Shown here piece after piece: positions 5,147 to 18,130 of a stretch of DNA of 27,391 nt (position 1 is the first letter of the stretch; each line of letters opens with the position of its first letter). This stretch comes from a virus. The DNA is taken from positions 1 to 27,391 of IMG/VR virus record IMGVR_UViG_3300037246_000736; one strand, written 5' to 3'. Under the pieces are notes generated by a model. It had not been told where the DNA came from and did no database searches. It worked only from the letters and a program-made list of their open reading frames with translations. The position numbers and the translations under genes were made by a program.

Positions 5147-6019
5147 TTATTTGAAGCCAGCTAATTTCCTTAACTGGACAGATTGCCCATCCCAAGTATC
5201 ACTTTCTTGGCCCCATTCACTTGGAGATTTGGGCCATCTCTCTTTTTTCCATTGATGAGGTGTTTGTTTTTGGCCTTCACCACCACCTCCTTCTCCGGCA
5301 CCGCCACCGCTCTCCGTAGTGCCTTCAGCCGCCAACGGAGCAATTAGTTTCAATAGCGCTCTTGCCATAACGGCATTTGTAGTCAATCCAGCCTCGACCA
5401 TTGCATCACCCACTTCCTCGTATTCATCCGCTGTTAAACCCGCTTTGTTCTTGATGGCTCTGCGCATAAGTTCCGATTGTTCTTTGAGCTTTTCTTCACT
5501 TCCGACATCAGAGTGTGCTATCAGGGCTTCATTGACAGCCTTTGCCGTGGCCACTTTATCATCGTTAGCCTTAGTATCCTTAGCAGCAGAAATCTCTTTA
5601 GCGTATTCAGTCAATGGCCCGTTATAAAGAGTGATAATGTCCTGCACTACCGATTTGGGCCACTTCTTTTCGATGGCAAGTGTTTTAATCATAGTTGTAA
5701 GTTTCTCATCCGGTTGTACTTCACTGCCTTCAGCCATTCCGGCCTTGAGGTCAATATCGCCTAATGCCTCGATATTCTCAGCGTGTTCGATTCCGAGCAG
5801 TTTGTGGGTCTGTGAGGTAAACTCACCCCTTGAGGCGTCGTCAGGCAGCTTGTCAAGCGACTCAGGCAGCCTGAACGGCTTACCAGCTAATTTCTGAGCA
5901 TTAAACCCACCAACAATAGCATCGTTCGGGGTTGCATACTTACTCATCCCTGTATTAAACGATTCCCTGTTCTCCTCCGTTATCGATTCGTGTTCAAATC
6001 CATCAATCCAATCTGGCAT
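5147..6019 (-). CDS. Scaffold protein for head assembly
   Basis: The ATG at 6019 (290 aa) is chosen over one at 6043 because AAAGGA lies just before it. The protein is acidic and rich in Ala, Glu and Lys, predicted mostly helical, with a Gly/Glu-rich flexible segment near residues 239-252 and a basic C-terminal tail ending in KLAGFK. This composition, with a charged C-terminus that could contact the coat, is typical of phage scaffold proteins, as is the position directly before the coat gene. There is no sign of a protease domain. Its first codons overlap the last 17 nt of the homing endonuclease gene, which has been inserted just upstream. Function rests on position and composition more than on motifs. 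Confidence 0.75.
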   Translation of the reverse strand: MPDWIDGFEHESITEENRESFNTGMSKYATPNDAIVGGFNAQKLAGKPFRLPESLDKLPDDASRGEFTSQTHKLLGIEHAENIEALGDIDLKAGMAEGSEVQPDEKLTTMIKTLAIEKKWPKSVVQDIITLYNGPLTEYAKEISAAKDTKANDDKVATAKAVNEALIAHSDVGSEEKLKEQSELMRRAIKNKAGLTADEYEEVGDAMVEAGLTTNAVMARALLKLIAPLAAEGTTESGGGAGEGGGGEGQKQTPHQWKKERWPKSPSEWGQESDTWDGQSVQLRKLAGFK

Positions 6020-6356
6020 AATTGTCCTTTCTCTGCGCAACAAAAAAGGCGGCGTGGCCTTTATTTTGCCCGCTTATCCATTTTTGGGCTTTCGCCCTTT
6101 TACTAACTAAATAAGGTTCAATCTCCGTTAAAAAGATAATACATTTTTGCCCACAAAGACGCCAATACCAGCACGGTTTTGCTTTTGGCCTTCCCTTTCT
6201 TTGATTAAGATATATTGTACCATCATAACGATCTACCAACTTTTGCAAAATTCGTACATCTGTGTTATCTATTCTTACAACAGGCCGTTGCTTTCCAATA
6301 TATCCTTCACCATCTACTATTCCTGCACACCACGCTTTTGTTGTTTCAGCTATCAT
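6003..6356 (-). CDS. Free-standing LAGLIDADG homing endonuclease
   Basis: A 117-aa protein with one LAGLIDADG motif near the N-terminus (WCAGIVDGEGYI, residues 9-20), where the Asp/Glu end of the motif supplies the metal-binding acid. Downstream are the typical VVRIDNTDVRILQKL strand-helix and a WYWRLCGQKCIIFLTEIEP segment followed by KRAKAQKW. Single-motif members of about this size act as homodimers that cut a specific site and spread their own gene. It sits between head-assembly genes, overlapping the scaffold start, which is typical for a mobile free-standing endonuclease in phage. Its start follows AAAGGAGG, but that site is partly folded into a hairpin, which may hold expression down. 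Confidence 0.85.
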   Translation of the reverse strand: MIAETTKAWCAGIVDGEGYIGKQRPVVRIDNTDVRILQKLVDRYDGTIYLNQRKGRPKAKPCWYWRLCGQKCIIFLTEIEPYLVSKRAKAQKWISGQNKGHAAFFVAQRKDNYARLD

Positions 6357-15241: not shown

Positions 15242-15739
15242 TCAAGTACCCTGTTTATCAGCTTTGGCGATGGCTGCTTCGGCTAATTTTAGGGCTTTTT
15301 TATCTGGACACTCCTCGCCAAGTTTGCATATTTCTTGGTGATTTACATAGTGCATTGTTACACGCAAGAATAATGCCTTACACGCTGCCAGCAGGTCGTC
15401 ACGTTCTTGCTTTAGCTCTTTGTTCCGAGCCTGAATAGCATTAAATCCTTGCATTTCCTCACCAGCTAAATGTTCAAATTTGACAAGAACAGCCTCTGCC
15501 CTATTTGCACGCTCTAACAAACCTTTGTTCTGAGCCTGTAGCTCGTCCCAGCCATTGACGCATTGACAGATACGCTGGGCGTTGGCTCTGGCTTCTATTG
15601 CAAAATCGGTTTTGCTTTTACTATCAAAAATACGAGCTATAAGAGGCTGGCGATTAGAAACATTTATTAAGTAATCGTTGAAATACTTGACCGCATCATC
15701 ATCTTTACGAAATAACCATTTTCCTTTTGTATAACTCAT
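15242..15739 (-). CDS. Phage protein with N-terminal globular and coiled-coil parts
   Basis: A 165-aa product starting after AAGGAGTAGAATT. Residues 1-60 form a beta-rich globular unit with an EARANAQRICQCVNGWDELQ segment at 49-68, resembling the EANARLIA-type segment frequent in unassigned phage proteins. A long coiled coil follows (KGLLERANRAEAVLVKFEHL to about residue 118), then a Cys-containing C-terminus (EICKLGEECPDKK). It is the first gene after the pseudoknot-bearing leader and its promoter, and may be controlled by that RNA. Function unknown. Confidence 0.75.
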   Translation of the reverse strand: MSYTKGKWLFRKDDDAVKYFNDYLINVSNRQPLIARIFDSKSKTDFAIEARANAQRICQCVNGWDELQAQNKGLLERANRAEAVLVKFEHLAGEEMQGFNAIQARNKELKQERDDLLAACKALFLRVTMHYVNHQEICKLGEECPDKKALKLAEAAIAKADKQGT

Positions 15740-15756
15740 AATTCTACTCCTTAATT

Positions 15757-15841
15757 AAAAGACCCCAGCCAAAGCGGAACAGCGGGAACTGGACGTGCTT
15801 TGACTGAGGTCGTTAATTCGGATTGTGTTCCCGCATTCCAT
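15757..15841 (-). ncRNA. Promoter-proximal pseudoknot RNA ending in a terminator-like stem
   Basis: The predicted transcript starts near 15841, 7 nt after a strong -10 box. Stem 1 is a 15-bp helix (GACCTCAGTCAAAGC at 15811-15797 with GCTTTGGCTGGGGTC at 15775-15761, two G-U pairs) followed by UUUU. Its 21-nt loop contains GTTCCCGC and TTCC, which pair with GCGGGAAC (15834-15827) and GGAA (15839-15836) at the very 5' end, giving an H-type pseudoknot whose two 3' arms are contiguous. It could be an independent small RNA of about 85 nt or an attenuating leader of the gene starting at 15739. Structure is drawn by eye; the function is unknown. Confidence 0.62.
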
Positions 15842-15847
15842 AACTAT

Positions 15848-15876
15848 ATTATCGGCGATTTATTCAGAGAAGTCAA
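15848..15876 (-). promoter_or_regulatory. Sigma70-type promoter driving the pseudoknot RNA
   Basis: On the minus strand TTGACT (15876-15871) and GATAAT (15853-15848) are separated by exactly 17 bp, each matching the bacterial consensus at five of six positions. It lies in a 241-bp non-coding gap. It is the best promoter match seen in the window and places the RNA start two bases before the 5' arm of the pseudoknot. Confidence 0.75.
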
Positions 15877-15980
15877 GTAAATTCTCAGATTTCTTGTATA
15901 TTCTTTTCGCTGCCTTTTAGCCTTAAAAGACAGGTTTATGAACTTTTATTGAATAAGGGTAATTGGCCGACCTTCTGTTC

Positions 15981-16562
15981 TTACCCCCACTGTTCTGCCA
16001 TAGCATCTGCTATACCTTGGTAAGTTATACTTCTAAGTTTTCCTCTGTCGACAGTTTTTGCCATTTTGTGTATTCTCGCCTCTCGGCCTGCTACAAGTTT
16101 TGTCATTCCTAATTTCCGCAGGTTTTTCAACCATAAGCAAGTTGCTTTTGTTTCTCCGTGCCCAAATTGCCACGGCTGAATTATCTGGTCATATTTACGT
16201 CTTATCCCCTCTATGGCGTATTTATGCGGAATTGGGTTTTCTACAGCTATTTTGCTGACCCCTGAATGTAACAGTTTCCAGAAGAATAAAGCTGCCTCTT
16301 CCATCTTTGCCCATCGTTCGTGGTCTTTTGTGCCATCAGGTTTATATAGCCATCGAACACCGCTGTTACATAGATAAGTACACGGCGGGTGTGCTATCAT
16401 CAAATCCCAGCCAGTATCGATTATATCAAGAACATCGGCCTGAATATGATAAAAATAATCTGCTTCACAGGGCAATAAATCACAACTCCAAGCATCGTGG
16501 CCTTTGGCTCGGAAGGCATCTCGGACTATTCCACTAAACTCACAAGCTACTAAAACTCTCAT
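15981..16562 (-). CDS. Small C5-cytosine-methyltransferase-like protein
   Basis: A 193-aa Rossmann-type protein. The N-terminus has the S-adenosylmethionine-binding pattern (RVLVACEFSGIVRDAF, residues 2-17). The catalytic loop reads HPPCTYL with the PPC nucleophile at 59-61, and the ENV-type motif appears as VENP at 107-110. A GHGETKATCLWLK segment (134-146) is typical of a compact phage family often annotated as cytosine methyltransferase. It lacks the target-recognition domain and late motifs of full enzymes of over 300 aa, so it may act on free DNA with loose specificity, modify something else, or need a partner. A sigma70-like promoter lies just upstream, making it start its own unit. Confidence 0.8.
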   Translation of the reverse strand: MRVLVACEFSGIVRDAFRAKGHDAWSCDLLPCEADYFYHIQADVLDIIDTGWDLMIAHPPCTYLCNSGVRWLYKPDGTKDHERWAKMEEAALFFWKLLHSGVSKIAVENPIPHKYAIEGIRRKYDQIIQPWQFGHGETKATCLWLKNLRKLGMTKLVAGREARIHKMAKTVDRGKLRSITYQGIADAMAEQWG

Positions 16563-17033: not shown

Positions 17034-17156
17034 TCACTCCTCTTCTTCAGTACAATCACTATATTCCCCGGCTATCCAGTCAGAAATATAGATGAATCCT
17101 ATAGCTATAAACACTGTTGGTAATGATAAATAGAATCTAATGTCTTTAAGGCTCAT
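17034..17156 (-). CDS. Single-pass membrane peptide
   Basis: A 40-codon frame with ACAGGAGT before its ATG, overlapping the end of the DUF5131 gene by 11 nt and ending just before the next start. It has one transmembrane segment at about residues 11-25 (LPTVFIAIGFIYISD) and a highly acidic tail (CTEEEE). Such micro-proteins often modify host membrane functions. Strong start signal and packing; the role is unknown. Confidence 0.6.
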   Translation of the reverse strand: MSLKDIRFYLSLPTVFIAIGFIYISDWIAGEYSDCTEEEE

Positions 17157-17928
17157 TTGGGTACTCCTGTCTCTGTGCCCACTTCGGGAACTTGTCTATG
17201 TCTTTGGGATATTTGAGAAGTTTACCGTTTAAGTGGATTTGCTTAATGAAAATCTTTACGCCGGCAGCCACACATTGTATTGCAATACTTTTCACCCAAT
17301 CCAGTTCACACTTGCGCCCGGGGTGACTGCCGATAGATTCAGCACCGATGATGACCCAATTGATACCTTCTAAATTCAATAAACCCATATCCGCCAGTAG
17401 CGGCTCAAAGCTGACAAACTTTACTGCTGCTGGAATTTGACGAAGTATATCAATCTTGTCCTTTTCGTCCGGTGTGCAGACTGATACGCCCGCCCAGATA
17501 TTTTCTCGATTTCCGTCAGTAAACCCTTTTCTTAATCGATGTTGCCAATATTCTAAATATCTTTCGGGTCGTTTCGTTAACACTTGAAAGGTGTGTTGCC
17601 TACTCACGGACATTGTCCACCAAACACCATCAATAAACTCAAACGGCACTTTCGGATGGAATAAATCAGACATTGAGCAGACAAAGATTTTGCGGGGATT
17701 ACGCCAGTGACGAGGTTTGTCGAGAGCGGATTCATCACAGAAAACTTTGCCATTCCAGCCTCGCATCCAACCCAGCATCCCAATTGTCGCCATATATTTC
17801 TTTTGCCCCATACAGGCTAACCGATACGCCATCCTCTCTGCATAGCAATTCAAACAGCCGGTGCTGCATTTCGTACAGCCGACAACTGGATTCCAGCTTT
17901 CTTCTGTCCACGCTATTTTTGTTGGCAT
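17146..17928 (-). CDS. DUF5131 (phage Gp37/Gp68) radical-SAM-type protein
   Basis: The ATG at 17928 has AAAGGATAACG before it and gives 260 aa; an upstream ATG would overlap the previous gene. The signature WNPVVGCTKCSTGCLNCYAE at residues 12-31 includes the CxxxCxxC triad (C21, C25, C28) that holds the 4Fe-4S cluster of radical SAM enzymes, with an extra Cys-18. Later segments fit the TIM-barrel of this family: RKIFVCSMSDLFH, QVLTKRPERY, a WAGVSV strand and VSFEPLLADM, then WVIIGAESIGSHPGR. The family is related to spore photoproduct lyase; its chemistry is not established. It is encoded downstream of a folded RNA with a B12-box-like strand and beside a methyltransferase-like gene. Confidence 0.88.
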   Translation of the reverse strand: MPTKIAWTEESWNPVVGCTKCSTGCLNCYAERMAYRLACMGQKKYMATIGMLGWMRGWNGKVFCDESALDKPRHWRNPRKIFVCSMSDLFHPKVPFEFIDGVWWTMSVSRQHTFQVLTKRPERYLEYWQHRLRKGFTDGNRENIWAGVSVCTPDEKDKIDILRQIPAAVKFVSFEPLLADMGLLNLEGINWVIIGAESIGSHPGRKCELDWVKSIAIQCVAAGVKIFIKQIHLNGKLLKYPKDIDKFPKWAQRQEYPNEP

Positions 17929-17938
17929 CGTTATCCTT

Positions 17939-18130
17939 TCAGGGCTTGTCAACATCTACCCATTCTACCTCTTGTATATTGCCTGCACACAGCTTGTCAT
18001 CAAGTCCTTTATGTCGGCGAGGAAAACGAGCACTCCCATCACCAACACCTTCAAAGTATGTCCCTCTTGAAATCCGACCAGCCGTTAGCTTGCCACATAC
18101 AACGCATTTGAAACAAGTCTTGCGTGCCAT
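17939..18130 (-). CDS. Small zinc protein ahead of the radical-SAM gene
   Basis: A 63-aa product; the second ATG (18130) is correctly spaced from GGAG, the first is too close. It has CFKCVVCGK at residues 5-13 and a lone Cys near 50 in a LCAGN turn, with the GTYFEGVGDGSARFPRRHKG middle and EWVDV end found in small phage zinc proteins of unknown function. It is the first gene after the structured RNA at 18152-18236 and lies 10 nt before the radical-SAM gene, so the two are probably co-translated. Confidence 0.72.
   Translation of the reverse strand: MARKTCFKCVVCGKLTAGRISRGTYFEGVGDGSARFPRRHKGLDDKLCAGNIQEVEWVDVDKP

Follow-up and report, generated by a model that had tools for sequence, protein, structure and literature searches.

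The window analysed was the whole of IMG/VR virus record IMGVR_UViG_3300037246_000736 (27,391 bases), which carries a phage gene set including genes for a portal-type head-tail connector, a GP7-family major capsid protein, the small and large terminases and methyltransferases, with all main ORFs on the minus strand. The element described here was found in the intergenic stretch between the end of a methyltransferase gene at 15981 and the start of a 165-codon gene at 15739, ~1.5 kb upstream of the small terminase gene. The 165-aa protein matched nothing in Pfam or PADLOC. Its N-terminal sequence, MSYTKGKW, is common to short proteins in phage records L008-L010, and no leader element was found upstream of the genes for these relatives.

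An imperfect inverted repeat (CTGCCTTTTA-GCCT-TAAAAGACAG, 15911-15934), perhaps a weak terminator or the 3' hairpin of the upstream gene, lies past the methyltransferase stop (15981) and ahead of the element's promoter. Elsewhere in the window, a phage-borne gene at 17146-17955, close to two methyltransferase genes, matches DUF5131 (PF07505) very strongly (1.7e-72). The small protein encoded at 6003-6356 includes GIVDGEGYIG close to its start, and we take it to resemble a LAGLIDADG homing endonuclease (putative).

Structure of the window element

The original prediction, made from the sequence of the window, was of a TTGACT-17-GATAAT promoter pointing at a transcript whose 5' end pairs with the loop of a 15-bp stem, with contiguous 3' arms followed by UUUU. 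Each of these parts was found on the minus strand (Table 1). The promoter has 10 of 12 matches and is the best on the minus strand within 14-18 kb; its score is reached by ~1% of random positions, and similarly strong promoters are present in five other members of the family described below. On the minus strand, TTGACT-17-GATAAT is followed by six bases (ATAGTT) and then by ATGGAATGCGGGAAC..., which places the leader ATG 6 nt from the -10 box and the predicted transcript start at ~15841.

Table 1. Features of the element and of the adjoining gene in the window
Feature	Position	Strand	Sequence or remark
Promoter	15848..15876	-	TTGACT 15876-15871, 17-bp spacer, GATAAT 15853-15848
Leader ORF, 28 codons	15755..15841	-	MECGNTIRINDLSQSTSSSRCSALAGVF; ATG at predicted 5' end (leaderless), TAA at U-run
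S1 5' arm	15827..15839	-	GGAAUGCGGGAAC; its G overlaps leader start codon
Linker L1, 15 nt	15812..15826	-	ACAAUCCGAAUUAAC
S2 5' arm (predicted terminator stem)	15797..15811	-	GACCUCAGUCAAAGC
Linker L2, 7 nt	15790..15796	-	ACGUCCA; would cross S1
S1 3' arm, within S2 loop	15776..15789	-	GUUCCCGCUGUUCC
S2 3' arm	15761..15775	-	GCUUUGGCUGGGGUC; no gap after S1 3' arm
U-run after S2 (predicted intrinsic-terminator tail)	15757..15760	-	UUUU; relatives also U-rich after S2
Shine-Dalgarno of downstream gene	15747..15752	-	AAGGAG
Downstream gene	15242..15739	-	165 aa, begins MSYTKGKW

S1 is formed by GGAATGCGGGAAC and GTTCCCGCTGTTCC and consists of 13 pairs and one bulged U, and the 15 pairs of S2 include two G-U pairs, which argues for pairing in RNA rather than in DNA. 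RNA folding gave S1 as the minimum-energy fold at transcript lengths of ~60 to 76 nt, with S2 taking over from 78 nt, and a value of -24.7 kcal/mol for the S2 hairpin stem alone. The two pairings were found to be compatible as a pseudoknot and, as their 3' arms abut without overlap, they can form together. The parts fit a single RNA of ~85 nt, as had been proposed; such a product depends on termination at S2, and with read-through the same sequence becomes the 5' leader of the message for the gene that starts at 15739. The leader ORF extending from the ATG at 15841 to the TAA at 15755, and the existence of a multi-copy family, had been missed.

Together, S1 and S2 are the strongest interlocked stem pair in the window, with a summed stacking of -47 compared with -42 for the best of 40 dinucleotide shuffles. 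When the first 30 nt were dinucleotide-shuffled and the hairpin taken as given, 39 of 5000 sequences paired with the loop no worse than the actual 5' end (p ~0.008). Judged from the window sequence alone, the pseudoknot is therefore suggestive and not overwhelming. A single sequence would not settle the matter, and among the sequence evidence it is the recurrence in relatives that is decisive.

Related elements in other phages

Relatives were gathered from IMG/VR records via the terminase and portal protein, and the full records of several were fetched. The annotated phage and prokaryote genomes in the collections searched included no close relative, and no relative of the element or of the 165-aa protein was detected among phage isolates by DNA similarity or tblastn. 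The terminase matched only distant isolates (~25% identity for the best among the matches listed), and two scans of genome collections revealed no prophages or hosts. In Rfam (release 15), no family scored above the gathering threshold and only a chance miRNA match (E 2.2) was returned.

When records were scanned for the layout alone (interlocked stems and a U-run, later also an RBS with a start), elements of this type ranked highest. Related records contained about a dozen of them, which differ in sequence but not in layout, with no more than three confident copies per genome. Besides the window element (W), the members are in G003, G004 (two), G002 (three that stand), G013 (three), G016, G021 and G024/G025, and two outlying phages, G001 (L135) and G005 (L028), also carry an element. 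The three confident leader elements of G013 are located in L279 at plus 7607, plus 14715 and minus 16280. Each counted member has a U-rich run and directly precedes the RBS of a gene, and the downstream genes are unrelated. In sequence comparisons the elements match only themselves and there is no sequence common to the members, hence the module cannot be seen by sequence-profile methods such as Rfam. The same layout built from unrelated sequences is indicative of selection, not of a chance fold.

The element in G003 (L003/L238) occupies the same position as that in the window, again ~1.5 kb upstream of the small terminase gene. Its S1 is formed by TATGCGGTCAGAA/TTCTGATCGCATA (13 bp) and its S2 by AAATCAACCAAG/CTTGGTTGATTT (12-14 bp), the latter followed by a long U-run. 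Arms changing without compensation had been named in advance as evidence against the structure, and here both arm pairs differ from those of the window yet pair. The only recognisable homologous pair is G013a and G016, with 62% identity, in which S1 remains paired through a C-G to U-A replacement on both sides and a U-G to C-G replacement on one side; these changes were read in register by eye, as a MAFFT alignment misplaced the 5' end.

The layout was also examined in hairpins that were not selected on pairing or on an ORF, namely all strong U-tailed hairpins with an RBS behind and a loop of 12-45 nt, by comparing the best pairing of the loop with the 50 nt upstream against that with shuffled upstream sequence. 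In this phage group (525 kb), 13 of 57 hairpins reached p<=0.01 where 0.6 were expected, one of the 13, at L303 minus 4479, being similar to coding sequence and left out of the members. In other phages (1.68 Mb), from which two records already known to hold an element were left out, the corresponding figures were 2 of 122 and 1.2. This difference indicates that the layout is real and concentrated in this phage group.

Several other candidates and approaches were set aside. Two elements, G002c and G024b, were dropped as they lie in or at coding frames. A scan for the exact arms as DNA patterns returned only chance inverted repeats, apart from L028, which was later found by structure, and duplex-energy scans were discarded as too permissive and replaced by contiguous-stem scans and the unselected hairpin test. 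A U-tailed hairpin in L125 (992-1085) and L215 (minus 17982-18076) has a loop that contains AGGAGGTG, complementary to an upstream CACCTCCT that is the anti-Shine-Dalgarno end of 16S rRNA; the stem layout is as in the family, but no gene start was recognised behind it. The long L2 linkers of members in L003/L238, L135, L285 and L279 contain a small hairpin of their own (e.g. GGACtcattGTCC), suggestive of a shortened bridge over S1.

Leader start codon and open reading frame

Almost all members have an ATG at the very beginning of S1, though they were partly collected by rules requiring an ATG, a bias that is limited by the frame test and the unselected hairpin test. In the latter, an ATG no more than 6 nt from the start of S1 was present in 11 of the 13 significant hairpins versus 4 of 37 group hairpins without a significant S1. 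The distance from a good -10 box to this ATG is exactly 6 nt in W, G003, G004b, G013a and G024, and seven in G021, and with only six bases between them the message is predicted to be leaderless. Most of the members with no visible strong promoter have a Shine-Dalgarno-like run before the ATG (G002a, G002b, G002d and G005).

In 12 of 14 members no stop interrupts the frame set by the ATG across the two stems (P ~0.001 relative to random frame choice), and over the 14 members this frame contains three stops whereas the other two contain 13 and 24. The stop codon of 10 of these 12 members falls between -6 and +16 nt relative to the S2 end, in the interval from the predicted terminator to the gene start or just at that start, and adjoins the RBS of the next gene; in the window it lies 3 nt after the 15-bp hairpin. 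The frame from the first ATG is interrupted in G016 and G021, and G013b has a perfect 12-pair S1 but no ATG leader. By inspection, the leader peptides were found to have no conserved sequence, shared codon run or common regulatory codons. In L242 (G005; minus strand, from 15884), the leader frame continues in frame into the downstream gene, such that an N-terminally extended protein would result if translation began at the leader ATG.

Possible modes of action and known systems

From its form, S2 together with the U-run is likely to be an intrinsic terminator placed between the promoter and the gene. The element may well be a cis-acting, translation-gated transcription attenuator with a pyrBI-like logic, in which the leader start codon is masked by S1; we infer both this mechanism and the direction of control from sequence and predicted structure. 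The leader would set the level of transcription into the gene at 15739 and possibly into the packaging genes that follow it. A ribosome loading on the 5' AUG before S1 forms would follow RNA polymerase and, as it must pass through S1 and S2 to translate the leader, would keep both stems open and allow read-through, and translation would end at the leader stop, next to the gene's RBS. If no ribosome arrived in time, S1 would close over the start codon, S2 would stack on S1 and transcription would terminate after ~85 nt, the abutting 3' arms allowing the two stems to close together and stack. Termination would leave a compact RNA whose 5' and 3' ends are both paired, and expression of accessory or late phage genes would be coupled to prompt translation initiation. 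Ribosomes usually fail to suppress terminators that lie within 100 bp of the start of a coding region unless the polymerase pauses; a leaderless 5' AUG could, on this model, be bound very early.

Three roles were originally offered, namely a phage small RNA, an antitermination or anti-host RNA, and a leader attenuating the gene at 15739; the last of these is the best supported, and a trans-acting RNA with a conserved target is unsupported as the members share no sequence. A free-standing, stable phage small RNA of ~85 nt acting in trans, with the gene behind it reached only by leaky read-through, would fit the combination of a strong promoter with a strong terminator-type hairpin and of a 5' end sealed by S1 with a 3' end sealed by S2 and the U-run. 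However, with no sequence common to the members there is no common target, every member directly precedes the RBS of a different gene, and the start codon and open frame would play no role, making this explanation unlikely and less likely than the cis-acting attenuator. The same paired 5' end could instead serve to stabilise the message, S1 and S2 shielding it from 5'-end-dependent decay with termination and leader translation being secondary. S1 does start a few nt from the predicted 5' end in leaderless members, and architecture is kept while sequence is not, but a stabiliser needs neither a U-run nor an open leader frame, and S1 may not be at the 5' end in the several members that have no strong promoter just upstream; this possibility is considered distinctly unlikely.

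The roles of the two stems may also be opposed. Since both are longer than one helical turn, S1 could hinder S2 topologically and reverse the logic: S1 would act as an antiterminator that keeps the S2 5' arm confined to a closed loop, read-through would be the default, and a ribosome on the 5' AUG would block S1 and lead to termination. This is consistent with S1 being the predicted fold before S2 is complete, and full co-formation of both stems behind a moving polymerase would be difficult. On the other hand, the arms abut but never overlap, unlike those of known antiterminators, the linkers appear long enough for both stems in most members, and no reason is apparent for a frame that stays open through S2, and an antiterminator role for S1 is unlikely. 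Late-gene control of the lambda pR'-tR' kind, in which a promoter and an immediate terminator are read through via a Q-like antitermination protein or a put-like RNA, is very unlikely. The elements in W and G003 do lie ~1.5 kb upstream of the small terminase gene. The genes behind other members, however, are unrelated and located elsewhere, on either strand, and no antiterminator protein was detected among those window proteins that were tested, from a record that is itself a fragment.

With the translation-gated attenuator as the preferred reading, the family might, more tentatively, represent a new modular class of phage cis-regulatory RNA, in which a leaderless start codon is folded into the terminator loop of its own gene, a race between the first ribosome and RNA closure decides transcription, and the architecture alone is kept and reused before unrelated genes. 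If so, this would be an attenuator that senses translation initiation itself and requires neither ligand nor protein, and two interlocked stems and a start codon would be reused several times per phage genome with no conserved sequence. This would illustrate how phages link the expression of accessory or late genes to the condition of the host's ribosomes as a pool. Other genomes can be searched by a simple rule, namely a start codon, an arm, the terminator 5' arm, the arm complement, the terminator 3' arm, a U-run and an RBS, in that order. No description of such a layout was found in the literature searched, which is limited evidence of absence.

Partial likenesses to several known systems are evident. 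The short pseudoknotted RNA and terminator directly before a gene of ~170 codons recall the ToxI RNA of type III toxin-antitoxin systems, but the window element has no tandem repeats, the 165-aa protein has no toxin match, and other members precede unrelated genes. The pseudoknots of T4 gene 32, the alpha operon and rpsO lie over translation start sites, bind the protein they regulate and are not known to contain a terminator. The family shares with these a pseudoknot at a translation start close to the 5' end of the message, but its downstream genes are unrelated and its second stem is a predicted terminator. In W and G003, the order of promoter, immediate terminator, short RNA and then packaging region resembles lambda pR'-6S RNA-tR'. 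However, the family has an interlocked pseudoknot and a leader ORF, no Q gene was recognised, and most copies are located away from late operons.

On this comparison, the nearest working analogue is the pyrBI leader. In E. coli pyrBI (pyrL), a promoter-proximal leader ORF extends through an intrinsic terminator before the structural gene, and in attenuators of this type a ribosome close behind RNA polymerase would prevent formation of the terminator hairpin (PMC4824070, PMC5021804). The window family likewise has a putative leader ORF that runs through a predicted terminator before a gene. Unlike in pyrBI, no pause tract was identified, inspection of the leader peptides revealed no regulatory codon run, the copies have neither conserved sequence nor a conserved leader peptide and occur as multi-copy phage modules, and the start codon lies at or near the 5' end, where S1 is predicted to pair it into the terminator loop.
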